Positions 2,911 to 45,894 of a stretch of 45,894 nt of DNA are shown here, piece by piece. This stretch comes from a virus: positions 1 to 45,894 of the IMG/VR virus record IMGVR_UViG_3300042876_000236; one strand, given 5' to 3'. A model generated the notes under the pieces. It searched no databases and was not told the DNA's origin. It was given only the letters and a program-made list of their open reading frames with translations. A program made the translations under genes and the position numbers. Position 1 is the first letter of the stretch; each line of letters opens with the position of its first letter.

Positions 2911-3693
2911 CTAGATTGGCAAGACGGCCCGACTCGTACAACGACAATTGATTTCCTCGCCGGGCTGGATATATTTGCCGGAAATCAGGCAACCGGCCGC
3001 TATCTTATACCGTTTTCCGTTTGCCGCAACATGATCCGGGCGAGGATTCTTGCCGGCATGCGAATGCATCCATATCGCTTCGGTGATCCCGAGCTCAAGC
3101 TGCCGGGTCCGATTGACGACCGCATTCGCTTTATTCGACTGATCCCGGGCGATCAGTTCGGCACGTTTCGCCGTTACCGGGTATATCTGCCGGAGCTCCG
3201 CGACCATTGTTTCGAGGTCGCGCCCGAGCGAATACGACCGCATGACGACGCCGTCGATTTGCCGCAGGTATTGCTCGGGAATCGACTTTATCAAATTGAC
3301 ATTTTCAGCAATCGACGCATTCAGCGCGTCACGCATCGCCGCGGTCATGTTGAAGTCGACCGCCCATCCGGCGTCTTTGAGTGCCTGACGAAACGCGCTG
3401 TCACTCGCCTTGAATGCGCCGCGCACGTATGCGTCGGCAATCTTCGGGGCGTACTCGTCGAATTTGGCAATCCATCGTTTCGCAAGGCCGTCGAGCGTCT
3501 TGCGCATGCTTTGCGACGGCGAGGCGTCTTGCGCGAGCATGCCGATTCTCGGGGGCGCCTTGCGATACGCTGCCCTGATCCAATACTCAATGCTGCCATG
3601 CATTTCCGCGATCAGATCAGCAAGCGCCCGCCGATATCGCGACTCAATGCCACGATTCGCATGCACGGGCTTGCAGAGCTTAGGCTTTGTCAC
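2911..3693 (-). CDS. Phage minor head protein, Mu gpF / SPP1 gp7-like
   Basis: This 260-aa protein has the C-terminal signature of the head morphogenesis family: RAELIARDQSNKANA, then WMHSHAGKNPRPDH and PGEEINCRC near the end. Family members are minor capsid proteins that act with the portal in procapsid assembly. The start is a GTG at 3693, overlapping the portal stop by 14 bp, which fits coupled translation and the usual portal-gpF order. Length is normal for the family. No fused toxin domain is visible here, unlike the neighbouring portal. Confidence 0.9.
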   Translation of the reverse strand: MTKPKLCKPVHANRGIESRYRRALADLIAEMHGSIEYWIRAAYRKAPPRIGMLAQDASPSQSMRKTLDGLAKRWIAKFDEYAPKIADAYVRGAFKASDSAFRQALKDAGWAVDFNMTAAMRDALNASIAENVNLIKSIPEQYLRQIDGVVMRSYSLGRDLETMVAELRQIYPVTAKRAELIARDQSNKANAVVNRTRQLELGITEAIWMHSHAGKNPRPDHVAANGKRYKIAAGCLISGKYIQPGEEINCRCTSRAVLPI

Positions 3694-6088
3694 GCTTCAC
3701 CATGTAGGCATCAGACTTGTCGTTATCGGGCATTACCTTTTCGAGCTTGTAGCCTTTATCGGCAAGCGCCGACTTTGCTTGCGCCATAAATTCCGGGTCG
3801 CTATGTGCATCGCCGAACAACACGCCGACGCCCTTGCCGTACTTCGTAACCGATATGCCGCCTTGATATTTCGCAATGTCCTTTTGACGCTCAGCGATCG
3901 GCAAATCGTATCGCAGGAATTTGCCGCCGAGCGCCTTCAAAGTCGACGTGACATTGCTTATGCGTTGCTTAATGCTCTCGGGCGGCTCGCTCGACTGCGC
4001 GGGCGGCTCGCTCGACTGCGCGGGCGGCTCGCTCGACTGCGCGGGCGGCTCGGCCCATTGTGAATATTGCCGCATCACTTCCGGCGAATACTCTTTGCCG
4101 GTATGAATTCCGGCGAACACTTCGGCAACAAATTCTTTCGGGCTTGTCATTGCGTAGCGGCTCACCTCGCCGGCAAGTTCCTTTTGCGCTGGCACGGGCC
4201 AATAGCCCGGCGCTTTCGTGTGCAGAGTATGCCCCACTTCATGCAATAGCACGCCCATTGGCGACGACGACGCCAAATGGCCCGACTCGGCGTTGCTCTT
4301 TGCCATGGCGGCCGGGTCTTTCCAAAACGGCGACGACTTGTTGATTAAAACGCCATTCGTCGGACTTCCGATCGCGGCAAATCTGCCGTCAGTCTTTCGC
4401 CCGGACGGATTTTCAGTCATGGCATTTATGCCGGCGTCATTTAGAATCCGCGCGGCAATTTCGGCATTAGCTTTCGCCGTTTTACCCCATGCTGGCGTCA
4501 TCGCGCCTATGTCGGCAAACTTTTTTACCACATGGGCCGCCCCCGCCGGGGCGTTACCTTTTGGGCCGCCGCCGCCCCCCGAGCCGAATTTGCCGTCAGG
4601 CGCTCGGGGGTGATCCCCTTCTTTCCAATCGCCGTCTTTCGCCGCGAATGGCGGCGCATTCGGGTCGTCGTTTGGGTCAGTCTCACCGAATCCCGGGGGC
4701 GTCGGCGGCACAATCTCGACGGAAGTGTCGAGCCCCAGATAGCCGCTTTTCGGATCGCGGGCGAGCCGTTCGCGTTCCTCTTGCGGGTCAATGACGCCGG
4801 CATTGATATACGCCGTCGCGGCCTGACTATCCTTGAGGCGAATATCGGCCTCTTGCGTAGCGTCAAGCTGATACAGCGGCACGAATTCAAAGCTGATATC
4901 CGGGTCGATTTCGCCAAATTCGGAAAGCTGCACGATACGCAAAACGGTTTCGATCAAGCTGCGATAGTGCGCCTCTTGCTGCGCGGCAACCCAATCGTAA
5001 AAGCTGCGAATTTCCCCCTCGCTTGAAGCATTCAAGCCGGTAGGGCTGACGCCAATCAAGATGATTGCGGGAATATGCGACACGCTGCACATTTGTTCCT
5101 GTGCCTGCGCCTGCAGTTCATGCAGTCCCGAGAGCGGCGTATTGATCTGCACCAATTCCTCGCGATCTTTGTCGAGCAGCATTAGCCCGCGATTGCTCCG
5201 CGTGGCCGTAAATAGCTGCGCTCGCGCAACGACCGCGGCGCCGTCATCGTCACCATTCAAAACCTCATCCATTGCCGTTGCGAGAGCGGTAATGCTGAAA
5301 TTGTTGATAAGGTCGGCCACGCTTTGCCGAGTGCGGAGCCAGTTATCGACGTAGGGCTCGGCAAGCTGCGAGAGCGACATGCCCGCGAAGTTAAATGCGG
5401 GCTTGAGGATATCCGGCAGCGGTCGCGTCACGACCGTCAGCAAACGCGACGCATGCACCTCTTTGCCGAGCATGAACCACTTTGCGGGGCGGTAGAAGTC
5501 AGGGGCGGTCGGGTCGATTGAGTCGTACCCGGAAGGCGTAGTCCACACCGGATCGACAGCCGTTATCCGCTTCAACGCCCCTTTGCGTATGGTGCGCTTG
5601 TCGAGGATAAGAGGCAATTCGCGATTTGGGTCGCCGACATCGACAAACATTTGCCCGCGGCCGAATAGCGCATCGTGCTCGGCAATCTGGCGAATGACGT
5701 TGCGCAAATCGAGTTCGACGAATTTGCGCTCGATTTTCTTAATTTTCTCCGACGTGTCGGTCGCGTCGTCTTGCTTGCTCGTCAGCTTGATCCATTCGCG
5801 AGTAAGCTCGGTCGAGAGCGCCGCAGCGAACGCCCGATACTCTGCGCGGGTTGCTAGTTGCGCAAGGTACGGGAAGCCCGGGAAACCGCCCCCGACGGCG
5901 CCGCTTGCTGCATAGGTATAGGTCGCACTGTCGGCAGCCAAAACGGGCGCGTCCACTCCGGCAGGCACTACGCCGGGCATTAGTGTCGGGGGTCGGATCG
6001 GGAAATCATAGACCTTTTTCCCGCTCGCCTTCGCCATTTCCCGATCGGCCGCTATTTGCAGACCGCGCTTGTCGCTAGTTTTAGCCAT
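3680..6088 (-). CDS. Portal protein (DUF1073/HI1409 type) fused to a zincin-like domain
   Basis: This 802-aa protein is much longer than the roughly 450-500 aa typical of this portal family. Residues 1 to about 480 fit a DUF1073 portal (FGRGQMFVDVGD, PAIILIGVSPTGLNASSEGE, DATQEADIRLKD). A Gly-rich linker follows (HPRAPDGKFGSGGGGG). Then comes a domain with HEVGH at 616-620 and KEFVAEVFAGIH with Glu652/Glu656, the pattern of a zinc metallopeptidase (gluzincin or lethal-factor-like). Three EPPAQSS repeats (about 681-705) and a C-terminal domain of about 100 aa end the protein. The start ATG at 6088 has GGAG upstream. Portal function is secure; the peptidase role is inferred from the motif. Confidence 0.9.
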   Translation of the reverse strand: MAKTSDKRGLQIAADREMAKASGKKVYDFPIRPPTLMPGVVPAGVDAPVLAADSATYTYAASGAVGGGFPGFPYLAQLATRAEYRAFAAALSTELTREWIKLTSKQDDATDTSEKIKKIERKFVELDLRNVIRQIAEHDALFGRGQMFVDVGDPNRELPLILDKRTIRKGALKRITAVDPVWTTPSGYDSIDPTAPDFYRPAKWFMLGKEVHASRLLTVVTRPLPDILKPAFNFAGMSLSQLAEPYVDNWLRTRQSVADLINNFSITALATAMDEVLNGDDDGAAVVARAQLFTATRSNRGLMLLDKDREELVQINTPLSGLHELQAQAQEQMCSVSHIPAIILIGVSPTGLNASSEGEIRSFYDWVAAQQEAHYRSLIETVLRIVQLSEFGEIDPDISFEFVPLYQLDATQEADIRLKDSQAATAYINAGVIDPQEERERLARDPKSGYLGLDTSVEIVPPTPPGFGETDPNDDPNAPPFAAKDGDWKEGDHPRAPDGKFGSGGGGGPKGNAPAGAAHVVKKFADIGAMTPAWGKTAKANAEIAARILNDAGINAMTENPSGRKTDGRFAAIGSPTNGVLINKSSPFWKDPAAMAKSNAESGHLASSSPMGVLLHEVGHTLHTKAPGYWPVPAQKELAGEVSRYAMTSPKEFVAEVFAGIHTGKEYSPEVMRQYSQWAEPPAQSSEPPAQSSEPPAQSSEPPESIKQRISNVTSTLKALGGKFLRYDLPIAERQKDIAKYQGGISVTKYGKGVGVLFGDAHSDPEFMAQAKSALADKGYKLEKVMPDNDKSDAYMVKRDKA
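3981..4043. repeat. Three perfect 21-bp tandem repeats in the portal gene
   Basis: Exact copies lie at 3981-4001, 4002-4022 and 4023-4043, with a partial fourth copy after them. On the minus strand they encode EPPAQSS three times, a flexible Pro/Ser linker between the HExxH domain and the C-terminal domain. The copies are identical at the DNA level, which implies recent expansion. Confidence 0.95.
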
Positions 6089-6137
6089 CGTGGCCGCTCC
6101 TATCCAAAGTGCGGCCCATTGTACGCCCTAAAAATAA

Positions 6138-6184
6138 TTGTTGACGTATGTAAATAATTGACATACACTGCAATCGTCAACAAC
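6138..6184 (+). promoter_or_regulatory. Promoter/operator P1 (class I copy)
   Basis: -35 TTGACG (6141-6146), a 17-bp spacer, -10 TACACT (6164-6169). The unit is enclosed by arms TTGTTGAC (6138-6145) and GTCAACAA (6176-6183). The spacer holds the near-palindrome TATGTAAATAATTGACATA. An A-rich stretch upstream may act as an UP element. It drives the gene at 6203. Confidence 0.88.
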
Positions 6185-6202
6185 ACAAACGGAGCGCAAA
6201 TC

Positions 6203-6838
6203 ATGACGAATACCAAGACCCAAACCCGCGGCCACTGCCAATGCTGCGGCCGTCAGCAGGCCGTCAATGGGACGATGGCCCACCACGGATACACGGTCGA
6301 GCATGGCTATTTCAACGGAGTCTGCCACGGCCACAATCATGCGCCGATCGAAAATGATCGCAGCGTCGCCGACCAAGTTATCGCCACGGTTCGCGCCGAC
6401 GCCATCGCGCTCCGCGCCGAAGCTGATCGATTCGCATCCGGCGAGATTCACCCGAAGCAAATCGAAAGCGGTCGCAGCGAATGGCAGAATGGCCGCCTCG
6501 TTCCGATCATGCTCGCTTGGGACGATGCCCCTGAGTACAAGCGGCAAGAGGCCGTCAAGTCTATCGAATGGTCGAAGCGAAACCGCGCACGGGCGGCCGA
6601 CCAGTTCGCTAACGACCTGCAGCAAATCGCCGACAGCTTCAACGGCAAGCCCCTGCAAGTCGTCGAAGTCGAAGCGAAGGCGGCACGCATTCAAGCCGGA
6701 GAAAAGCGCGAAGGCAATAACTGCACGCTGATCGCCGAGTATCAAGACGGCGGCCGGGTCTATTACAAGCTCAACGGGACCGGCCCGATAAGGTGGCGTG
6801 GCGTCGCTAGCTGGCGCAAGATGCCGCTGATTTCCTGA
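6203..6838 (+). CDS. Hypothetical zinc-binding protein (211 aa)
   Basis: I chose the ATG at 6203 because GGAG lies just upstream and promoter P1 ends before it; an in-frame ATG at 6158 lies inside the promoter. Residues 8-35 hold CQCCGRQQA, then CHGHNHAP, a likely CxxC...CxH zinc site. The middle is charged and helical, rich in Ala/Glu/Arg, and the C-terminus ends RWRGVASWRKMPL. Similar small Cys-His proteins occur in phages of GC-rich hosts, but I cannot assign a function. It is the first gene of the plus-strand cassette between portal and terminase. Confidence 0.82.
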   Translation: MTNTKTQTRGHCQCCGRQQAVNGTMAHHGYTVEHGYFNGVCHGHNHAPIENDRSVADQVIATVRADAIALRAEADRFASGEIHPKQIESGRSEWQNGRLVPIMLAWDDAPEYKRQEAVKSIEWSKRNRARAADQFANDLQQIADSFNGKPLQVVEVEAKAARIQAGEKREGNNCTLIAEYQDGGRVYYKLNGTGPIRWRGVASWRKMPLIS

Positions 6839-6847
6839 CGAAACGCC

Positions 6848-6865
6848 GAGGGGCTTCGGCCCCTC
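6848..6865 (+). terminator. UUCG-loop hairpin after the 211-aa gene
   Basis: GAGGGGC (6848-6854), loop TTCG, GCCCCTC (6859-6865). This is a very stable tetraloop hairpin 9 bp after the stop, but it is followed by eleven A rather than T. It could still slow or end transcription; the A-tract also sits directly upstream of promoter P2, where it could serve as an UP element. Confidence 0.5.
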
Positions 6866-6879
6866 AAAAAAAAAAATAA

Positions 6880-6926
6880 TTGTTGACATATGTAAATAAT
6901 TGACATACACTGCAATCGTCAACAAC
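6880..6926 (+). promoter_or_regulatory. Promoter/operator P2 (class I copy)
   Basis: -35 TTGACA (6883-6888), a 17-bp spacer, -10 TACACT (6906-6911). Arms TTGTTGAC (6880-6887) and GTCAACAAC (6918-6926) flank it, and the predicted start of transcription lies at the right arm. The right arm runs straight into the CAGGAG ribosome-binding site of the gene at 6941, so the leader is only about 23 nt. Confidence 0.9.
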
Positions 6927-6940
6927 AGGAGTTCGCTACC

Positions 6941-7219
6941 ATGTCCCTGATTCTCCCCGCATCTACTTCCCCGCTCCGCGCTCTTTTCGACGTTAGCCAC
7001 CTCGCCGAAATGTGCGCCCCGAGCAATCGCGCCAAGCTGCCGACGCTGTTGGGGGCGCTGCAGTCCGCTCGCGATACGCTGCGCAGCGACAAGGCGATCC
7101 GCATGGTGCACCTGATCGCGCTGCGTGCCGACGGCCACGTCATTCTGATGGAGTGCCGGCGCTCGCACAATTCTTCGCTGCCGTCACACGTCACGCTGTT
7201 CGATTTCGGAGCCCTCTGA
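6941..7219 (+). CDS. Hypothetical protein (92 aa)
   Basis: Unrecognised. ATG 6941 follows CAGGAG and promoter P2. The N-terminal half is helical (LRALFDVSHLAEMC, KLPTLLGALQSARDTL); the C-terminal half looks like a beta sheet (MVHLIALRADGHVILMEC, HVTLFDFGAL). There is no signal peptide or membrane segment. It is followed two bases later by the next gene, so the two are co-transcribed. A small cytoplasmic early or accessory protein is likely. Confidence 0.75.
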   Translation: MSLILPASTSPLRALFDVSHLAEMCAPSNRAKLPTLLGALQSARDTLRSDKAIRMVHLIALRADGHVILMECRRSHNSSLPSHVTLFDFGAL

Positions 7220-7221
7220 CC

Positions 7222-7488
7222 ATGAGCAGCCCGGCAGAAGTCAAAGCCCTCGCGGATAAGCATGGCGTGCAGTTGGAAATCCTGCGATCCGCGAGCGGAT
7301 GGGATATCGATTGCTGGTCGCCCAACGGCCTGCGCTTCAAGTGCTCGGGCACGCATTTTCTAGCGTTGCCGGGCGACGGCTACTACACGCGGCCGGATTG
7401 GGCCGAGACTAAGCGAGCCCTTGCCGACGCAATCGCCTACGGCTTCGAGGAATGCGACGATCCCGACTGCGACGTTTGCGAAAAATAG
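7222..7488 (+). CDS. Hypothetical protein (88 aa)
   Basis: Unrecognised. I chose ATG 7222 because it follows the previous stop by two bases and has GGAG about ten bases upstream; the longer frame upstream overlaps the 92-aa gene. The sequence has VKALADKHGVQLEIL, an aromatic centre (GWDIDCWSPNGLRF) and an acidic Cys pair at the end (CDDPDCDVCEK), which could bind metal. Its TAG stop ends at 7488, touching the left arm of promoter P3. Confidence 0.75.
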   Translation: MSSPAEVKALADKHGVQLEILRSASGWDIDCWSPNGLRFKCSGTHFLALPGDGYYTRPDWAETKRALADAIAYGFEECDDPDCDVCEK

Positions 7489-7535
7489 TTGTTGACGTAT
7501 GTAAATAATTGACATACACTGCAATCGTCAACAAC
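7488..7535 (+). promoter_or_regulatory. Promoter/operator P3 (class I copy)
   Basis: -35 TTGACG (7492-7497), a 17-bp spacer, -10 TACACT (7515-7520). Perfect 9-bp arms GTTGTTGAC (7488-7496) and GTCAACAAC (7527-7535) enclose it, followed by AGGAG for the gene at 7549. The left arm begins on the last base of the upstream stop codon. Confidence 0.9.
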
Positions 7536-7548
7536 AGGAGCAACGAAC

Positions 7549-7851
7549 ATGGCAAACCAAATCGCGCAAACGATCCTGCAGCAACTCGGCGGCAATCGCT
7601 TCACCATCATGACCGGCGCAAAGAATCTTGTCGCCGGCCCCAACTATCTGCAATTCGACATCGGCCGCGGCGCGATCAACAAGGCTAACAAGGTGCGCGT
7701 CACGCTCGACACGAACGATACTTACCTCGTCGAGTTCTTCTATCTGCGCGGAGTCAATTGCAAGACCTGCCCGGGCGCCGCTCGCGGCATCTACGCCGAT
7801 CGCCTCGCGCCCTATTTCACCGAAGCAACCGGCATGGATACGCACCTCTAA
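7549..7851 (+). CDS. Hypothetical protein (100 aa)
   Basis: Unrecognised by function. ATG 7549 follows AGGAG of promoter P3. Sequence features are QTILQQLGGNRFTIMTGAKN, KANKVRVTLDTNDTYLVEF, and a CKTCPGAARGIYADRL loop near residues 68-85. The pattern is a small alpha/beta protein of a type often seen as an unannotated phage gene. It has no membrane segment. The next gene starts two bases after its stop. Confidence 0.78.
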   Translation: MANQIAQTILQQLGGNRFTIMTGAKNLVAGPNYLQFDIGRGAINKANKVRVTLDTNDTYLVEFFYLRGVNCKTCPGAARGIYADRLAPYFTEATGMDTHL

Positions 7852-7853
7852 TC

Positions 7854-8261
7854 ATGGATCGCGTAACTCGAATCGACGACGAGGCGAGCTATCGGCTGAT
7901 GTCGGCCGCGCTCCCTCTCCTGACCCCGGCAGCGCAAGAGCTCGTCAAGAGCGTTGCGGTATTCGTCACAGCCGCCCGACGTGGTCGCGCAAATTGGCGG
8001 GGGCGCCTCGTGCGCGTTCCGACGTTCGTATTTAACGACACGATCAACTTTGCCGGCCGCGGAACGGTCGCAGGGGGCGACGCCTTTGCAGCCTATTACC
8101 TCGCGCACGAGCTCGCGCACGTAGCGGCAAAGACCGGCACGCATAGCCCGCAATTTATGGCGGCCTTCAAAGAGCTATGCCCGCCCGAATTGCAATGGTA
8201 CGAAACGCTCTACAAACCGAGAGCGGCAGCCGCGGCCGGCATCGTTAAAAATAGTTGTTGA
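7854..8261 (+). CDS. Small HExxH putative metallopeptidase (135 aa)
   Basis: ATG 7854 lies two bases after the previous stop. The protein carries YYLAHELAHVAAKTG with His85, Glu86 and His89, then His97 in GTHSPQF, a pattern like SprT/WLM-type minigluzincins, where a HExxH and a nearby third ligand bind zinc. A DNA-associated protease or a phage accessory peptidase would fit, but the substrate is unknown. There is no signal peptide. The TGA stop (8259-8261) lies inside the -35 hexamer of promoter P4. It is the second HExxH protein in this genome besides the portal. Confidence 0.82.
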   Translation: MDRVTRIDDEASYRLMSAALPLLTPAAQELVKSVAVFVTAARRGRANWRGRLVRVPTFVFNDTINFAGRGTVAGGDAFAAYYLAHELAHVAAKTGTHSPQFMAAFKELCPPELQWYETLYKPRAAAAAGIVKNSC

Positions 8262-8301
8262 CATATGTAAATAATTGACATACACTGCAATCGTCAACAA
8301 C
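8254..8301 (+). promoter_or_regulatory. Promoter/operator P4 (class I copy)
   Basis: -35 TTGACA (8258-8263), a 17-bp spacer, -10 TACACT (8281-8286). Arms GTTGTTGAC (8254-8262) and GTCAACAAC (8293-8301) enclose it, followed by AGGAG. The last codons and stop of the upstream metallopeptidase gene overlap the left arm and -35. Confidence 0.9.
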
Positions 8302-8315
8302 AGGAGCCCGCCGCC

Positions 8316-8552
8316 ATGACAAACAAAGTAGCCCAAGTCTGCAACCAAGCCGCAAACGCTGTCGCCCGTAACGCCACGCTGCTCGATTGGGGCGTGCGGT
8401 TCACGCTCGACAACGAGCTCGACGCGCTGCGCGTTGCCTATGCCCATCGCAACGCCCCCGGCGGCGTCAAGTGCGAATATCTGGAAGTGACGGGCGAGTA
8501 TGCCGTCACCATCTTTAACAAAGATTGCCCCGCGGGCATCGATCGGAGCTAA
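8316..8552 (+). CDS. Hypothetical protein (78 aa)
   Basis: Unrecognised. ATG 8316 follows the CAGGAG of promoter P4. The N-terminal half is helical (VAQVCNQAANAVARNA); the rest looks like beta strands (GVRFTLDNELDALRVAY, CEYLEVTGEYAVTIF). There are no known motifs and no export signal. It leads a short operon with the genes at 8558 and 8810. Confidence 0.73.
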   Translation: MTNKVAQVCNQAANAVARNATLLDWGVRFTLDNELDALRVAYAHRNAPGGVKCEYLEVTGEYAVTIFNKDCPAGIDRS

Positions 8553-8557
8553 CCGCC

Positions 8558-8806
8558 ATGACCAAGACCGAATTGCAAGTAATTCGCAACATCATCCGCC
8601 GCCTGCAGTCGCAAAACCTCGGCTGCTCCAATAGCCCCGCGCATGACGCCCTCGTTGCGCAAGCGAACGCCGCCGGCCTTGAAGTCGCCAGCCGTCACTA
8701 TCTCGATTCATGGGTCGTTCCGGCGCTTGAGCTCCTGCTGCCCGACGGCGAGGTCGAAAGCATGCGCCACGACCCAAAGCTCGCCGCTAGCCTCTCGGGG
8801 CGCTAA
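8558..8806 (+). CDS. Hypothetical protein (82 aa)
   Basis: Unrecognised. I prefer ATG 8558, with CGGAG about eight bases upstream and only a 5-bp gap after the previous stop; an upstream in-frame start at 8525 would overlap that gene. It is mostly helical (TKTELQVIRNIIRRLQSQ, PAHDALVAQANAAGLE, VVPALELLLP). It may be a small DNA- or protein-binding helical protein, but no motif proves this. Confidence 0.73.
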   Translation: MTKTELQVIRNIIRRLQSQNLGCSNSPAHDALVAQANAAGLEVASRHYLDSWVVPALELLLPDGEVESMRHDPKLAASLSGR

Positions 8807-8809
8807 GCC

Positions 8810-9097
8810 ATGAAGCCAATAGACCGAGAAAGATGGATTCTCGCGTACATGCAAAGAAAGGATCGCAGCGTCGAGAATGTCGACGCAAATTTCGTTGACG
8901 ACTATGTGGACGCTACGGGCGCCGCATTCGTCGGTCAGCCGTTCGGCGCCCATAAATGCAAGCAACTCGGGCGAGATTTGGGGCGAATGCATGCCCGAGG
9001 GGTTTTGACGCGATGGGCATGCGGCTTGCCGAGTGGCGATGCCGCAATGGGTTTTCCGAAATGGGTGTGGACTTACAGCATCGCGCAGAGAGACTAG
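8810..9097 (+). CDS. Hypothetical protein, possible winged-helix fold (95 aa)
   Basis: Last gene of the plus cassette; it starts 3 bp after the previous stop and its end overlaps the end of the large terminase gene by 4 bp (tail to tail). It has RERWILAYMQRKDRSVENVD, AFVGQPFGAHKCKQLGRDLG and HARGVLTRWACG, an order of helices and turn that looks like a small winged-helix DNA-binding module. This is a fold guess only. Confidence 0.75.
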   Translation: MKPIDRERWILAYMQRKDRSVENVDANFVDDYVDATGAAFVGQPFGAHKCKQLGRDLGRMHARGVLTRWACGLPSGDAAMGFPKWVWTYSIAQRD

Positions 9098-10557
9098 CCC
9101 CTGACGCCCAAAGCGGCATTGATGGCCGCCTGCGTCACGTTGAGCTTGCCGAACAACGGATACAGGCGGCGCAGGGCTTGCGATAGCGCGTCGACTTGGT
9201 CGTCATTCGGCGCCGCCGGAAACGTCGTAAGCTCGGCGACCAAATCCTTAACCCAAGGGGCAATATCGGGATGCGGCAGCCACACGTTGCCAGCTTCCCA
9301 ATACGCCGTAACCGCGTGCGCCCGTGCGAGCTTTGAGCCGTCAGGCTCGACCGGGATCAAACCCGGGACGTGCTTTCTGAGCGTGTCGATTACCGCAGGG
9401 CCGTTCGCCTTATCTTCGATCAGAATCTCGCGCACGCGAGGCCATGCGTTGCGCAGCGTGACGACAGCATCGACGGTCTTTGTAAATGACATGCGTGCCC
9501 GCGTCTGCGCGAGCAGGTAGCTATTCGCGCCCGCCTTGCCCCACACTTGCCCAACGACGAAGTCGGTCCCGTCAGTGTCCTTAAATGTGCAGTCCCACGA
9601 GGCGAGCACCTTGTCGAATTTCGTCGGCAAGTCTTTCGGCAAGTAGTATTGCACGCCCGATTCTTTAAACACGTTGCCGCCGATCGGCTTCGGGCTTTGC
9701 TGATACATGGCCGACCACCAGTAATCGCTAAGCTCAGCCTTAAATTCTAGTAGCTGCTCGATTGGGTGCAGTTCCGGCACGAGCGGACCCTGCGGCAATA
9801 GCGGGTTGTAACCACTCTCGCCGGGCAGGTTGATCGCAGGGAATCGCAGGACCGTTAGGCGCGAATCGCCAGCATGTAGCGCAGCAATCTTTGCGGGCAG
9901 ATCATCCTCGGCCCATGATGTCGCCATAATGATCTGGCCGCTATCTTTCGACATGCGCGTTTTGCACGTCGATTGGTACCAATTCCAATGCCCCTCTTTG
10001 AACGTCGGGCTGAGCGCCTCTTGCGCATTCTTGATCGGGTCGTCAATTATGAAAATGTCAGAGCTTTTGCCGGTGAATCCCCCGCCGACGCCGTCGCCGA
10101 TATAGCTGCCCGTTCCGTTCGGTGAGGAAAATTCGCCGTTGCGGTTAATCGTAAATTTGCGCCGCTCAGTCGGCGCCGGAAACAGCCGCAAGTGCTCGGG
10201 CGACGCGAGATTGCGGCGCACGTCAAGCGACATGGAATCGGCGAGCGTGGCCGAGTAGCTTGCTGCAGCCACACGCCAATCAGGGAAGCGGCCGAACAGG
10301 TAGCACGGCAATTTTCTGCTGACTAGCTGCGACTTGCCATGCTGCGGGGGCGCCTGAAAGATCATAATCGGCCGCTTGCCCGCCCGCATGTCCTCGATAA
10401 ATTTGTCGAGCGCGGCGCAAACCATGTCAGAGAAAAATGACTTTACGTAACCCGGCGTCGTATATGCGACATAGTCGCCAAACGAGGACCGAGCCCGACG
10501 ACGTGCGAGTAGTTCGCTAGCCGCTTGTTGCGCTGTCAGCATGGAGGATCGCCGCAA
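9094..10557 (-). CDS. terL: Terminase large subunit
   Basis: This 487-aa protein has the packaging ATPase-nuclease layout. The Walker A-like APPQHGKS lies at 69-76 and Walker B IFIIDD at about 169-174. The RNase H-like nuclease has acidic residues at Asp323 (SWDCTFKDTDG), Glu382-Asp383 (ILIEDKANG) and Asp453/454/457 (NDDQVDAL). It cuts and pumps phage DNA into the prohead through the portal. The start may be 10557 or the internal ATG at 10542; both overlap the small subunit gene, as is usual. Separation from the portal by a plus-strand cassette is unusual. Confidence 0.95.
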   Translation of the reverse strand: MRRSSMLTAQQAASELLARRRARSSFGDYVAYTTPGYVKSFFSDMVCAALDKFIEDMRAGKRPIMIFQAPPQHGKSQLVSRKLPCYLFGRFPDWRVAAASYSATLADSMSLDVRRNLASPEHLRLFPAPTERRKFTINRNGEFSSPNGTGSYIGDGVGGGFTGKSSDIFIIDDPIKNAQEALSPTFKEGHWNWYQSTCKTRMSKDSGQIIMATSWAEDDLPAKIAALHAGDSRLTVLRFPAINLPGESGYNPLLPQGPLVPELHPIEQLLEFKAELSDYWWSAMYQQSPKPIGGNVFKESGVQYYLPKDLPTKFDKVLASWDCTFKDTDGTDFVVGQVWGKAGANSYLLAQTRARMSFTKTVDAVVTLRNAWPRVREILIEDKANGPAVIDTLRKHVPGLIPVEPDGSKLARAHAVTAYWEAGNVWLPHPDIAPWVKDLVAELTTFPAAPNDDQVDALSQALRRLYPLFGKLNVTQAAINAALGVRG

Positions 10558-13559: not shown

Positions 13560-13876
13560 TGCGCTTTTTCCTTCGGTTGATCGATAACCGCATTCCCTTG
13601 GGAATCCCGCTGAGTATCGCTGTGACTACCACCACAGCCGGCGAGGATCAGCGCGAGCAAGAAAAGCCCCAAGCCGACAACAACGCCGATTGCCGTCGGC
13701 GTGCTCGCTTCGCTCGTGACGGCATGCTGCTCGTCACGAGCGAAGTAGATCGCGGAGCCAGTGACGAGCGTCACAAACAGCACGAACGCGACGACCGCGA
13801 CTGCCCAAAATGCGGCCTCTTGACTGATGCCGATCAGCGCGAAAAATGCCTCGGTGCTAAACATCGCTTCAATCAT
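13556..13876 (-). CDS. Small membrane protein with two hydrophobic segments (106 aa)
   Basis: Hydrophobic segments are AAFWAVAVVAFVLFVTLVTG (about 21-40) and GVVVGLGLFLLALILAG (about 64-80). The second ends in LAGC, a lipobox-like sequence, followed by a polar tail (GGSHSDTQRDSQGN). A two-segment holin-like protein, or a protein containing an internal lipoprotein start, are both possible. The start at 13876 overlaps the ParB-like gene stop (ATGA). It lies upstream of the coiled-coil, exported and wall-hydrolase genes, so a lysis role is plausible but unproven. Confidence 0.75.
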   Translation of the reverse strand: MIEAMFSTEAFFALIGISQEAAFWAVAVVAFVLFVTLVTGSAIYFARDEQHAVTSEASTPTAIGVVVGLGLFLLALILAGCGGSHSDTQRDSQGNAVIDQPKEKAQ

Positions 13877-14700
13877 GACGGAATCCCCTTAAGCAGTTCG
13901 CCGATGGCCGCCTGCAGTTCCCCGGAAAGCATGACGAAGCCCGGATCGTTATGGATGCGCTGCAGCGCATTGTGCATCGGCTCGGCGACCTTGCGCAGCG
14001 CGACCTTGCGCTCGTGGCCGGGCATGTGCTTCGGCGACACGCGCCCGCCTGCCGCCTTGACCAGCGCGTTAAGCAATTGTTGGTGCGCTTGGTCGCCATA
14101 CTTAGCGATAGCCGCGATCGCGGTCGTTGCCGATACGACGTTTTCCTCGACCATCTTGCGCACGGGCAGCGGGGCCGCGGCAAGGCTCAGCAAGCCATCG
14201 ACGTATTGCGCCGAGGCGTAGCACAGCCGTTGCGCGATTGCTTTGCTTTCCCATCCGAACGACGCGAGGCGCTTGCAGACGATCGCTTGCTCGTATGCGC
14301 TCAGCGGCTCGCCGTCGTTACCCGTGGCGAGCTCTACGGTCAAGTCCTCGATACTCGTACCACGGGGGCTGACCACGACCGGAACGGTCGGAATTTCCAC
14401 GCCTTCGCTGATCGCCAGCAAGACGGCCGCATGCCTGCGATGGCCGCCGGTAATGTAGATAACGTCGGCGTCGCCTTCGCGAGCAACGTAGCCGGCGAGC
14501 GGCATATTCTTGTAATACCCGTTCGCCTTGATGCTGTCGGCGATCCAGCGCACGCGAGCCTTGTATGCGTCATTAATGACGCGCACGTTGAAGCCGTCGA
14601 GTACGCGCAGCTTGTCGGGGGCGACTTGCCACAAGTCGGCACTGACCGCCCCCACGTCACGCATTGCGGCCTTGACGTTACCCATTGTCAAACTATCCAT
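13873..14700 (-). CDS. ParB-like nuclease/CTPase-domain protein (275 aa)
   Basis: ATG 14700 has GAGAGG upstream; a GTG at 14709 is less likely. After about 25 residues comes a ParB/sulfiredoxin-fold domain with DGFNVRVIND, a KANGYYKNMPL strand-helix and ITGGHRRHAAVL with GGHRRH at 85-90, the family signature. A helical part follows (SAYEQAIVCKRLASFGWE and KAIAQRLCYASAQYV, an HTH-like region), then a long helical C-terminus. Phage ParB-like proteins may act as DNA-binding regulators, partition-like factors or nucleases; there is no parA or obvious centromere array here. It lies in the early operon. Confidence 0.88.
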   Translation of the reverse strand: MDSLTMGNVKAAMRDVGAVSADLWQVAPDKLRVLDGFNVRVINDAYKARVRWIADSIKANGYYKNMPLAGYVAREGDADVIYITGGHRRHAAVLLAISEGVEIPTVPVVVSPRGTSIEDLTVELATGNDGEPLSAYEQAIVCKRLASFGWESKAIAQRLCYASAQYVDGLLSLAAAPLPVRKMVEENVVSATTAIAAIAKYGDQAHQQLLNALVKAAGGRVSPKHMPGHERKVALRKVAEPMHNALQRIHNDPGFVMLSGELQAAIGELLKGIPS

Positions 14701-14751: not shown

Positions 14752-15306
14752 CTAACTGATCCCGGTAACTTGCGCAATGACTTGCCGCGATTTCTCGGCG
14801 ACGCCTCGCGCCACGCTATGCGCGTTCGTATTCGGCACGTACCGCGCGAGCATGTTCGAGAGCTCGCGCTCAGCCGCGACAAGTTGCGCCAGCAATACCG
14901 GCCCCGCCTCCATAACCTTGCGCACCCGCGCGGCCTCGGCTGCGACCGCCTCGTCGTGCGCTTTCGCTGCGGCACGTTCCTGCCGGCGGCCTTCGATCTG
15001 GCCGGGCGTCGGGATATGGTCGATATGCGCGAGCGTCAGCGGCTCGAATTGGTCTTTCGTTTCGGCCAGCACATGCATCATCCAGCCCGAGCGGCTAAAG
15101 CTCTTTGTTTCGAGGCTATAGCTCGGCGCCTTGATATCTTCGCGGTCCAAATCGACGAGGTTGTAACCGCGACGCCCGGCGATCCACAAGCACCACGTCG
15201 CCACCTTGACGCCATCTACGACCACGTCGTAATCGTAGATTTTACGGCCGGCGGTTTGCTTGTTGTGCTTGCAGTCGCGCAGCACTTTGAGGAATTCGAG
15301 TTTCAT
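14752..15306 (-). CDS. Hypothetical early protein (184 aa)
   Basis: Unrecognised. I chose ATG 15306 because CGGGAG lies upstream and promoter P5 ends before it; the in-frame start at 15348 lies inside the promoter. The N-terminal half is beta-rich (YDYDVVVDGVKVATWCLW, AGRRGYNLVDLDRED); the C-terminal half is a long charged helix (RRQERAAAKAHDEAVAAEAA) ending LLAQLVAAERELSNMLAR. It is the first gene under class II promoter P5, followed by the ParB-like gene, so an early regulatory or takeover protein is possible. Confidence 0.77.
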   Translation of the reverse strand: MKLEFLKVLRDCKHNKQTAGRKIYDYDVVVDGVKVATWCLWIAGRRGYNLVDLDREDIKAPSYSLETKSFSRSGWMMHVLAETKDQFEPLTLAHIDHIPTPGQIEGRRQERAAAKAHDEAVAAEAARVRKVMEAGPVLLAQLVAAERELSNMLARYVPNTNAHSVARGVAEKSRQVIAQVTGIS

Positions 15307-15321: not shown

Positions 15322-15365
15322 GTTGTTGACGGTTGCACTATATGGCAATTATTTACCTATGTCAA
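15322..15365 (-). promoter_or_regulatory. Promoter/operator P5 (class II copy, minus strand)
   Basis: Minus-strand -35 TTGACA (15365-15360), a 17-bp spacer, -10 TATAGT (15342-15337). GTCAACAAC follows at 15330-15322, 30 bp from the TTGAC core. The spacer TAGGTAAATAATTGCCA equals that of P6. A second GTAAATAATT lies just upstream (15376-15367). The TGA stop of the primase gene overlaps the -35. Confidence 0.9.
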
Positions 15366-17753: not shown

Positions 17754-18059
17754 TTAGGCCAGCGAATTAAGGGCGCGTTGCTTCAGTTCCGGGGTGGCTT
17801 TACGCGCATGCGGATCGCCAGCGGCAAGCCCTTGCGCAATGATCGACAGGTTTTCGGCAGCGATCGCCGAGCGCATGATAGTACGCTTGAAGCTCGGCAT
17901 TGTCCCGAAGTATCGCGAGATAAGAGCCGGCACGCAGCCCACTTGAGCAGCGACAAGCTCGCGCGTCAGCTTGCCGAGGCCGCCGGGCTTCGCAGCGACA
18001 ACGATCGCCGCGGCAAGGATTTGTTGCCGACGGTCGTCGGGCTGTTGTCTTTTCTTCAT
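17754..18059 (-). CDS. TetR-like HTH regulator (101 aa)
   Basis: I chose ATG 18059 because it overlaps the VRR-NUC stop (ATGA) and has AAGG upstream. The first 60 residues resemble the TetR N-terminal DNA-binding domain: RRQQILAAAIVVAAKPGG, LTRELVAAQVGCVPALISR, YFGTMPSFKRTIM. At 101 aa it is far shorter than a full TetR protein of about 200 aa and lacks a ligand-binding domain; this short form is seen in phages. It could bind one of the operator families described here. It lies directly upstream of the primase-polymerase. Confidence 0.83.
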   Translation of the reverse strand: MKKRQQPDDRRQQILAAAIVVAAKPGGLGKLTRELVAAQVGCVPALISRYFGTMPSFKRTIMRSAIAAENLSIIAQGLAAGDPHARKATPELKQRALNSLA

Positions 18060-23750: not shown

Positions 23751-25768
23751 TGCGCGAGGCACCGACGCCGCCGGCCACAAGCAAGAGGCCGGCGGCTTTT
23801 TACGATACAGAGTGCTACCCTAACTTCTGGCTGCTCAAGGTCAGGGCGCAGGGTAGCGCGGTTGTCTATACCTTCCGGCTCGACTCGGGGCAAACGCTAT
23901 CCGCAGAAACTTGCGGCCGAATCGTCTTGCTGTTTGATGCTTATTGCATGGTCAGCTTCAACGGCAACGGGTATGACGTTCCGATGATTACCGCCGCGCT
24001 TGCCGGCTATAGCTGCGAGCAATTGAAATGGCTAAACGACCGCATCATCGTCGATAAAGTCAAACCGTGGGATTTAGGGCTGCCCGAGTGGCGCCCGTCA
24101 GATCATATCGACGTAATGGAAGTCGCCCCCGGGCAGGGCTCGCAAAAGCAATATGCCGGGCGCATTCATTACAAGACCATGCGCGACCTACCTTATGAGC
24201 CGAGCACGTACCTTGACGCAGATCAAAAGAACAACGTCGCCGAGTATTGCGAGAATGATCTAGGTCAATTAGAAGCAATTTATGTCGAGCTCGCCCCGCA
24301 GATCAGGCAACGCGAGGCGCTAGGCGCTCGCTATGGGCTCGACCTTCGCAGCAAGTCGGATGCGCAAGTCGCAGAGGCCGTTTTGCGGTATCGCTGCGAG
24401 CAAGTGGTCGGTCGCCGACTGTATAAGCCCGACATCGATTGGAATCTGAAATTTCGCTATCGCGTGCCTGAGTTCATTTCGTTTAGCCCGCTATATCCGC
24501 AACTCGGTCGCGTGCTTGAGGCTGCCCGTGATTCGATATTCCGGCTAGGGCCATCCGGTGCAGTCGAAATGCCGCCGCAACTTGAGGGGCTTTGCGTCAC
24601 GATCGGCGCGACCACGTACAAGCTCGGCATAGGCGGCCTGCATTCGCAAGAAAAACGCCTTGTCGCGATCAGCGACGACCTTTATCAAATTCGCATGCCC
24701 GACGTGGCAAGCTACTACCCGAATCTGATTATCAATTCCGGCGAGTGGCCGGCGGCCCTCGGGCAAGCGTTTTTGCAAGAGTTTGCCGCCATCAAAGACG
24801 AGCGTCTAGCCGCGAAGGCGCTAGCGAAGCGGCTCAAGAAAGAGGGCTTCGAGGGTACTGTCGAATATATCAACGCTTCGACAGAAGATGCCGGCGGCAA
24901 GATCATGATTAATGGCACGTTCGGCAAGACCGGCAGCCCGTTTAGCATCCTCTTCGCGCCGCAGATGCTCATTCAAACGACATTGACCGGACAGCTATCG
25001 TTACTCATGCTGATCGAATGGCACGAGCATTACGGCATCCCGGTCGTGTCCGCCAATACCGACGGCCTCGTCATTAAGTGCCCGCGAGACATGATCGCAA
25101 CAAGCGACTTTCTCATTAAGGAATGGGAACGCAGAACCGGGCTCGAAATGGAAACCGAGAATTACGTCGCTATCTATGCGCGTGACGTGAACAACTATTT
25201 TGCGGTCAAGACCCCTGACGACGTAAAGCGTAAAGGCGAGTACGGCAAAGCGGGTATGGCTGAAAAGAAAAACCCGGACTGCGAAATTTGCAGTGACGCC
25301 GTGGCCGAATATCTCGCCAAAGGCACGCCCGTCGAATATACGATCGGCATGTGCCGAGACATTCGCAAATTCGTGACGATCCAAAGAGTCGCCGGGGGCG
25401 CCGTCAAGCTATGGGGCGACGGGCCACGCAAAGGCGCTTTGGTCCGTGACATGCTCGGCACGCTACAGGCTAACGGATGGGTCAAAGAGGGTCGCCAATG
25501 GCGCAACGGCGCTCGTCTTGCCAATGCGGCCACGGCATACGAATCATGTTTCGCGCCGCAGCGCCCCGAGTATTTAGGCAAGGTCGTGCGCTGGTATTAC
25601 GGCACGCGCTCGCCCGGCCCGATCGTCTATTCGAGCAACGGCAATACGGTCGGCATGTCGTATGGGGCACAGCCATGCATGACGCTACCTGACGAATTCC
25701 CCGACGACATCGACTACGCTTGGTATCTCAAAAAGGCGCAACAGATTCTTGTTGACATAGGTAAATAA
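23750..25768 (+). CDS. Family B DNA polymerase with 3'-5' exonuclease
   Basis: This 672-aa protein has an exonuclease domain with YDTEC (Asp19, Glu21), SFNGNGYD (Asn71, Asp76) and YCEND (Tyr166, Asp170). The polymerase domain has motif A PDVASYYPNL (Asp318), motif B KIMINGTFGK (Lys384) and motif C SANTDG (Asn436-Thr437-Asp438). The usual DTD of motif C is NTD here; Asp318 and Asp438 can still hold the metals. It is smaller than T4/RB69 polymerases. It works with the primase-polymerase/helicase, SSB-like protein and nucleases. Its last codons overlap promoter P6, and the TAA stop lies in the spacer. Confidence 0.92.
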   Translation: MREAPTPPATSKRPAAFYDTECYPNFWLLKVRAQGSAVVYTFRLDSGQTLSAETCGRIVLLFDAYCMVSFNGNGYDVPMITAALAGYSCEQLKWLNDRIIVDKVKPWDLGLPEWRPSDHIDVMEVAPGQGSQKQYAGRIHYKTMRDLPYEPSTYLDADQKNNVAEYCENDLGQLEAIYVELAPQIRQREALGARYGLDLRSKSDAQVAEAVLRYRCEQVVGRRLYKPDIDWNLKFRYRVPEFISFSPLYPQLGRVLEAARDSIFRLGPSGAVEMPPQLEGLCVTIGATTYKLGIGGLHSQEKRLVAISDDLYQIRMPDVASYYPNLIINSGEWPAALGQAFLQEFAAIKDERLAAKALAKRLKKEGFEGTVEYINASTEDAGGKIMINGTFGKTGSPFSILFAPQMLIQTTLTGQLSLLMLIEWHEHYGIPVVSANTDGLVIKCPRDMIATSDFLIKEWERRTGLEMETENYVAIYARDVNNYFAVKTPDDVKRKGEYGKAGMAEKKNPDCEICSDAVAEYLAKGTPVEYTIGMCRDIRKFVTIQRVAGGAVKLWGDGPRKGALVRDMLGTLQANGWVKEGRQWRNGARLANAATAYESCFAPQRPEYLGKVVRWYYGTRSPGPIVYSSNGNTVGMSYGAQPCMTLPDEFPDDIDYAWYLKKAQQILVDIGK

Positions 25769-25791
25769 TTGCCATATAGTGCAATCGTCAA
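25752..25791 (+). promoter_or_regulatory. Promoter/operator P6 (class II copy)
   Basis: -35 TTGACA (25752-25757), a 17-bp spacer TAGGTAAATAATTGCCA, -10 TATAGT (25775-25780), GTCAA at 25787-25791. It matches P5 on the opposite strand at 15322-15365. It lies in the 3' end of the polymerase gene and drives the small genes from 25806. Confidence 0.9.
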
Positions 25792-26880: not shown

Positions 26881-27045
26881 ATGGCCGCAAAAGTGTCTGC
26901 CGAAATGCTGAAAGCGAAACGGCTCGTCGTCGAAAGGGGTCTGACTCCATACGCTGCAGCAAAAGAGGCCAAGATCAGCACGAGCGCGATTTATATGTCG
27001 CAATGGTACAAGGATCGTCGCGATGCCAATAAAAAGCGGAAATGA
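26881..27045 (+). CDS. Small helix-turn-helix protein (54 aa)
   Basis: A 54-aa gene too short for usual cutoffs. ATG 26881 follows the previous stop by one base, with GGAGG upstream. The sequence has a helical N-terminus (SAEMLKAKRLVVERG) and an HTH-like LTPYAAAKEAKISTSAIYMS, then a basic tail (KDRRDANKKRK). It is a good candidate for a small Cro-like DNA-binding regulator, perhaps of the TTGAC operators; no direct evidence links them. Confidence 0.78.
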   Translation: MAAKVSAEMLKAKRLVVERGLTPYAAAKEAKISTSAIYMSQWYKDRRDANKKRK

Positions 27046-45594: not shown

Positions 45595-45894
45595 CGTGCC
45601 GCCACATGAAAGGCTGTAGATTTGCGCATAGTAGCCTTAAATCGAGTTTGTGGGGCGGCCAGTAATGCGAAGATCGTCGCCCTCTGCGATTTTACGGCGA
45701 AATCGGCCCATGTGATTTCGGACAAATTGACGACGCTCGCGGCAACCGTCGCCCCGGCCATCGTGATCGCGGCATCGGCCTTCGCAGGGGCAGTCGCGGC
45801 AGCGGCAACCGTCGCCCCGGCCATCGTGATCGCAGCCGACGCCTTCGCAGGGGCAGTCGCGGCAGCGGCAACCGTCGCCCCGGCCATCGTGATC
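45591..45894 (-). CDS. Large repeat-containing virion protein, C-terminal part (continues from 1-2137)
   Basis: This is the same gene as 2137-1, entering from the window end. It holds the last repeat units (AITMAGATVAAAATAPAKA) and a unique tail: AASVVNLSEITWADFAVKSQ, then RATIFALLAAPQTRFKA and a basic end. The TGA stop at 45591 overlaps the ATG of the 93-aa gene. Read alone, an internal ATG at 45887 would give 98 aa, but the frame is open to the edge. The unique C-terminus may anchor the protein to the virion. Confidence 0.82.
   Translation of the reverse strand, partial: ITMAGATVAAAATAPAKASAAITMAGATVAAAATAPAKADAAITMAGATVAASVVNLSEITWADFAVKSQRATIFALLAAPQTRFKATMRKSTAFHVAAR
45739..45894. repeat. 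63-bp tandem repeat array, right part, with terminal direct repeat
   Basis: Cores end at 45768, 45831 and 45894, exactly 63 bp apart. The last 47 bases equal bases 1-47, so the last core is the same physical unit as the first of the left array; eight cores remain after merging. Units differ by a few bases (gcatcggcc versus gcagccgac). Confidence 0.93.

Follow-up and report, generated by a model that had tools for sequence, protein, structure and literature searches.

We analyzed a stretch of viral DNA of 45,894 nucleotides, IMG/VR record IMGVR_UViG_3300042876_000236, which we refer to as the window. In its terL-portal interval, eight small ORFs (g1 to g8) on the plus strand occupy positions 6203 to 9097, while the flanking late genes, among them terL and portal, the identities of which are backed by PHROGs and Pfam, run on the minus strand. 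The eight genes form four units holding one, two, two, and three genes. Genes are spaced by 2 to 5 bp within units; successive units are separated by 102, 60, and 54 bp, and in each of these gaps sits a promoter of a type that we refer to as class I. This arrangement agrees with the earlier note, which had described eight packed small genes opposing the late block in four units, each with its own class I promoter. The features of this interval and those discussed elsewhere in the window are as follows:

3680-6088, minus strand: portal gene, flank (PHROGs, Pfam)
6130-6201, plus strand: class I promoter-operator module, copy 1, with −35 hexamer TTGACG (6141-6146), operator-like spacer, −10 hexamer TACACT (6164-6169), and leader
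6203-6838, plus strand: g1, 211 aa, unit 1, Cys/His N-terminus (phrog_17208, E = 9e-57)
6872-6931, plus strand: class I module, copy 2 (core match, repeat alignment)
6941-7219, plus strand: g2, 92 aa, unit 2 (phrog_15793, E = 2e-13)
7222-7488, plus strand: g3, 88 aa, unit 2, orphan, with its stop codon inside module copy 3
7481-7541, plus strand: class I module, copy 3 (core match, repeat alignment)
7549-7851, plus strand: g4, 100 aa, unit 3 (phrog_9437)
7854-8261, plus strand: g5, 135 aa, unit 3, orphan, zincin-like with HELAH, with its stop codon inside module copy 4
8247-8307, plus strand: class I module, copy 4 (core match, repeat alignment)
8316-8552, plus strand: g6, 78 aa, unit 4 (phrog_7982, E = 1e-3)
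8558-8806, plus strand: g7, 82 aa, unit 4 (phrog_34903, E = 4e-19)
8810-9097, plus strand: g8, 95 aa, unit 4 (phrog_24457, E = 1e-33), with its stop codon overlapping that of terL
9094-10557, minus strand: terL, flank (PHROGs, Pfam)
15337-15365, minus strand: diverged class I promoter elsewhere in the window, in front of a 184-aa gene (14752-15306) and a ParB-like gene (13873-14700)
18956 (minus strand), 20672 (plus strand), and 22628 (plus strand): class II sites, TTGACGnnnCGTCA, heading replication genes
25752-25780, plus strand: diverged class I promoter elsewhere in the window, in front of a small-gene operon with the helix-turn-helix (HTH) gene
26881-27045, plus strand: gene for a 54-aa HTH protein, a candidate class I regulator, whose operon begins with a class I promoter

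The window has no near DNA match among GenBank phages. Based on terL and synteny, the phage lies near Proteus RS51pmB, Stenotrophomonas B2, and Bcep781, and its layout is Jedunavirus-like. The GC content of the cassette (59.2%) is that of the core (59.6%), and a recent foreign origin is therefore not visible. We note that, in the 802-aa portal protein, the portal domain is followed by a C-terminal extension with the metallopeptidase-like motif LLHEVGHTLH. The same 63-bp repeat array is present at both record ends (18-431 and 45676-45894), which suggests that the contig ends inside one repeat gene and that the genome is circularly permuted or circular.

The class I module in the window is ~56 to 60 bp long and consists of TTGAC(A/G) and TACACT, separated by a 17-bp spacer that holds an imperfect palindrome, and a leader, with GGAG in three of the four cassette copies. 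The promoter core matches the plus strand at 6141, 6883, 7492, and 8258, compared with no match in 100 shuffles. From −11 to +45 around TTGAC, the four copies are 94 to 100% alike, and just outside this segment identity falls to 17 to 32%, i.e., approximately to chance. These sharp repeat edges support the earlier suggestion that the promoter copies are duplicates of a module. Mutual identity is 97.7% among the cassette copies versus 84% for the two copies elsewhere in the window. The spacer palindrome, which the earlier note did not mention, is poor here, with 8 to 9 of 10 pairs in the cassette copies and 7 in the other two. Moreover, the window spacer is only ~72% like the copies in relatives, and the exact window-type promoter was not found in IMG/VR. 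The weaker and sequence-divergent palindrome supports that the element has drifted in the lineage of the window.

A terL search of IMG/VR gave 80 loci, and 15 larger, near-complete records were fetched, in which most structural and replication genes are syntenic at ~45 to 80% protein identity. The counterpart of the class I promoter in the relatives, TTGACA-TAGRTAAATWATTTAYCTA-TATAMT, is of the sigma70 type, and its 17-bp spacer plus flanks forms a near-perfect palindrome. Using a reduced set of 74 sequences, we identified 62 class I sites in 25 other IMG/VR records, which together with the six in the window amount to 68 sites with 38 unrelated gene families behind them, the window counted. 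The class I pattern gave 148 matches, a number that includes palindrome echoes and redundant loci, versus 4 in reversed controls. The leader from promoter to ATG is mostly 25 to 45 nt. In whole records, most copies stand apart from one another, and outside the terL-portal interval they do not favor either strand (18 same, 20 opposite). The presence of a palindromic operator in the spacer suggests that the sites form a regulon rather than a mere set of promoters. The exact class I promoter-operator has no match in the genomes of 84,980 bacterial and archaeal species, and terL was detected in these genomes in only one close and one distant MAG contig. Together, these two observations support that the element is phage-specific and that the phages are mostly not integrated.

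Next to these promoters, the gene content varies. Among the 67 loci, window included, that have both terL and portal, the gap between the two genes has a median of 98 bp; it is shorter than 120 bp at 39 loci and at least 250 bp, i.e., contains an insert, at 22. The insertion in the window thus splits genes that are adjacent in relatives. The 37 counter-strand ORFs in the gap fall into 33 families, and sharing occurs only within two contig pairs with matching inserts. In eight relatives, a class I promoter lies in the gap, on the counter strand in every case, and the genes behind it there differ from those in the window. Conservation of the same eight genes in all relatives, the outcome named in the earlier note as arguing against a modular cassette, was not observed: seven of these genes have no counterpart in any of the 15 near-complete relatives. 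The remaining gene, g4, is present in 5 of these 15 records, truncated in two, and is located there outside the terL-portal interval, ahead of terS and on the same strand as terL; in seven IMG/VR loci, g4 stands upstream of terS behind a promoter of the class I type. Similarly, a family of 129-aa proteins lies behind class I both in L071, where it occupies the terL-portal gap, and in G001, where it is flanked by SSB and DNA polymerase, and so two families are found behind class I at two loci in different phages. The two truncated g4 copies (L135:10360-10611 and L160:12298-12501) are fused to unrelated N-terminal sequence at about the same point of g4, and the N-terminal sequence in one of this pair reads like a transposase fragment.

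The g4 gene in the window carries the window's own promoter variant and not that of the relatives, suggesting that the promoter may stay in place while the gene behind it is exchanged. The proposal that promoter plus gene act as an acquisition cassette is accordingly upheld as far as gene turnover behind a shared promoter is concerned, but not in the sense that both move jointly as one piece. Other late intervals also vary, namely those between decoration protein and MCP and between head morphogenesis and protease genes, supporting that insertions enter at several points, of which the terL-portal junction is one.

Six of the eight products have PHROG relatives at E values of 1e-3 or better, supporting that the genes are phage genes and not spurious ORFs, while g3 and g5 are orphans. 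In agreement with the description of most of the genes as lacking a recognized function, all of these PHROG relatives are of unknown function. Similarly, the HExxH protein and the Cys-His protein noticed earlier correspond to g5, with its HELAH motif, and g1, respectively. The Cys/His N-terminus of g1 is conserved in three distinct relatives; the structure model is poor in this part, and the predicted structure has no PDB match. For g5, fold matches are sub-threshold only (proabylysin at E = 0.13 in the structure library; Pfam YgjP-like at 0.0066, below the cut-off), and the scan used detected no relatives in IMG/VR. The predicted structure of g4 has a pLDDT of 89; against the PDB, it gave nothing significant (best E = 0.11, with the T4 MotA DNA-binding domain among the weak matches), and its matches below E = 1e-3 are exclusively uncharacterized viral proteins. 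GenBank relatives of g1, g4, and g8 are scattered among unrelated phages. Using PADLOC, NCBIfam, and Pfam, we obtained no solid or usable match for the eight products and no defense, anti-defense, or toxin family. Based on position, size, and variability, a role of the products in host takeover is a reasonable guess.

Three proteins were considered as regulators of class I. The gene for the 54-aa HTH protein follows a class I promoter on its own strand within 3 kb in all 11 records that have it (the window and 10 of 10 others), compared with 1.6 expected; these 11 cases are largely syntenic orthologs and represent one strong association rather than 11 independent ones, so that the P value overstates independence. 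The HTH gene was not found in G006, G009, and G010, the larger records without class I. In a comparison of recognition helices and operators, L104 lacks the recognition-helix Arg, yet has a canonical operator. We infer that the 54-aa HTH protein is the best candidate for the class I regulator. We note that L035 (G006) contains a different repeated promoter-like element, TTGCTTAATAAGTAAAT, at 14162, 14910, 15422, and 16284.

The second protein considered, a TetR-like protein of 101 aa (17754-18059), is encoded between the primase and endonuclease genes, has a wider distribution, and is conserved across the group and the jedunaviruses. It scores 13.4 bits against Pfam TetR_N (cut-off 24) and has an E value of 7.5e-5 with the BetI model, and homologs are annotated as TetR in phage records. 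We rejected it for class I, as it occurs in class-I-free records and better tracks the second promoter class, class II, in which TTGACGnnnCGTCA overlaps the −35 and of which L162 has 13 sites. The TetR-like protein is possibly the regulator of class II; three phages with this protein lack the TTGACGnnnCGTCA class, making this link weaker than that between the HTH protein and class I. The third, the ParB-like protein, was rejected because it is missing from G012, which has class I sites.

We compared the cassette with known systems. In T4-type phages, promoter early stem-loops (PeSLs) are, as outlined in PMC4503421 (see Arbiol et al. 2010 and Comeau et al. 2014), repeated promoter modules between small accessory genes for which gene shuffling via homologous recombination has been proposed. 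Relative to that outline, the cassette is similar in that a sigma70-type promoter is repeated in front of small accessory genes, and the same promoter type stands with different genes and at different loci in relatives, where recombination at the module may have taken part. By contrast, none of the six window copies has the stem-loop half, with an upstream hairpin at 19 of the 68 sites overall, the genome is not that of a T4-type phage, and in class I a palindromic operator occupies the promoter spacer. In Cluster K mycobacteriophages, the SAS/ESAS are short repeats that contain inverted repeats and immediately precede non-structural genes belonging to many families; their sequence is subcluster-specific and their function is unknown (PMC3203893). 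A 13-bp start-site repeat, GGGATAGGAGCCC, goes with the ESAS, which has 17-bp arms and a variable spacer and occurs in non-structural regions only (PMC3203893). Class I resembles it as a palindromic repeat of lineage-specific sequence just upstream of many gene families. However, the window modules read GTCAACAACAGGAG and not the 13-bp GGGATAGGAGCCC repeat, the class I palindrome fills the spacer between −35 and −10, and class I units also enter the structural block. Lacking defining features of both PeSLs and ESAS, the class I element is set apart from them. In the literature searched, we found no description of the class I element and no paper naming Jedunavirus together with promoters. A likeness within that genus is seen in Klebsiella phage 1611E-K2-1 (NC_071138), which has counter-oriented small-gene sets in the late block with repeated palindromic promoters; there, however, the sets are headed by the class II element TTGACGnnnCGTCA and use other insertion points.

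A moron is a gene with its own promoter inserted between genes that are adjacent in relatives. The cassette is similar in that it places independent transcription units between late genes that would otherwise adjoin. On the other hand, it has four tandem units under what is predicted to be one shared regulated promoter, it shows no compositional contrast (GC 59.2 versus 59.6%), and, unlike for morons, we saw no sign of lysogeny among the genes examined in the window. Also, its modules have promoters but no upstream terminators: terminator-like hairpins precede 0 of the 6 window copies, compared with 19 of 68 in the whole set and 21 of 2,000 random positions. Nevertheless, the units could have been acquired one by one as moron-like insertions by illegitimate recombination, with the promoters homogenized by gene conversion and the module playing no part in exchange. 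The local promoter variant in front of g4, the higher identity among the cassette copies than elsewhere, as local conversion would give, and the ameliorated composition all fit such a history. We consider it rather unlikely, though, because the same promoter-operator type in front of 38 families in 26 records and at several loci exceeds what separate promoter-bringing insertions would account for.

Two further explanations concern the palindrome. If the palindromes were partition or replication sites for the ParB-like protein, promoter activity would be incidental; the gene for this protein is present in the window, and in four relatives a site lies directly in front of it. This is highly improbable, given that G012 has class I sites and no ParB-like gene between primase and terS, and that the sites retain both hexamers and the leader to ATG. 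Alternatively, the operator might belong to a host regulator, so that the genes would be tuned by host physiology and not by the phage. While the host sigma70-like hexamers are compatible with this idea, the element has no exact match in the species genomes, and the operator varies by phage lineage, with that of the window unlike the rest of the group, making a host regulator highly improbable.

We therefore favor the reading that the cassette consists of interchangeable accessory genes behind copies of one phage-specific regulated promoter module, to which we assign a probability of roughly 0.7; this modular reading is largely supported by the data. In this model, each module would comprise a sigma70-type promoter (TTGACR, 17-bp spacer, TACACT) with a palindromic operator as spacer, followed by a short leader containing a ribosome-binding site. 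Upon phage entry, the units would be transcribed by host RNA polymerase against the direction of the late genes. All copies would then be controlled together, most simply by repression, through a dimeric regulator encoded by the phage, for which the 54-aa HTH protein is the best candidate. The terL-portal junction would be one of several permissive insertion points, at which the repeated ~55-bp modules may supply homology for duplication or loss of units or for gene replacement.

More tentatively, and with somewhat less than even confidence, we suggest that a broad, little-described lineage of virulent myoviruses, from the environmental relatives to the Klebsiella jedunaviruses, keeps its accessory genes in plug-in units controlled by operator-promoters that are specific to each lineage. 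In this view, a small HTH protein of the phage would regulate the spacer-palindrome class, and a TetR-like protein would possibly do so for the TTGACGnnnCGTCA class. If so, unknown accessory genes would be findable genome-wide by promoter alone. If the modular reading is right, the promoter-operator would provide a homology-independent search handle for accessory genes in this phage group, a concrete candidate regulator-operator pair, and a test case for a fixed control system with swapped genes that operates without T4-style stem-loops.
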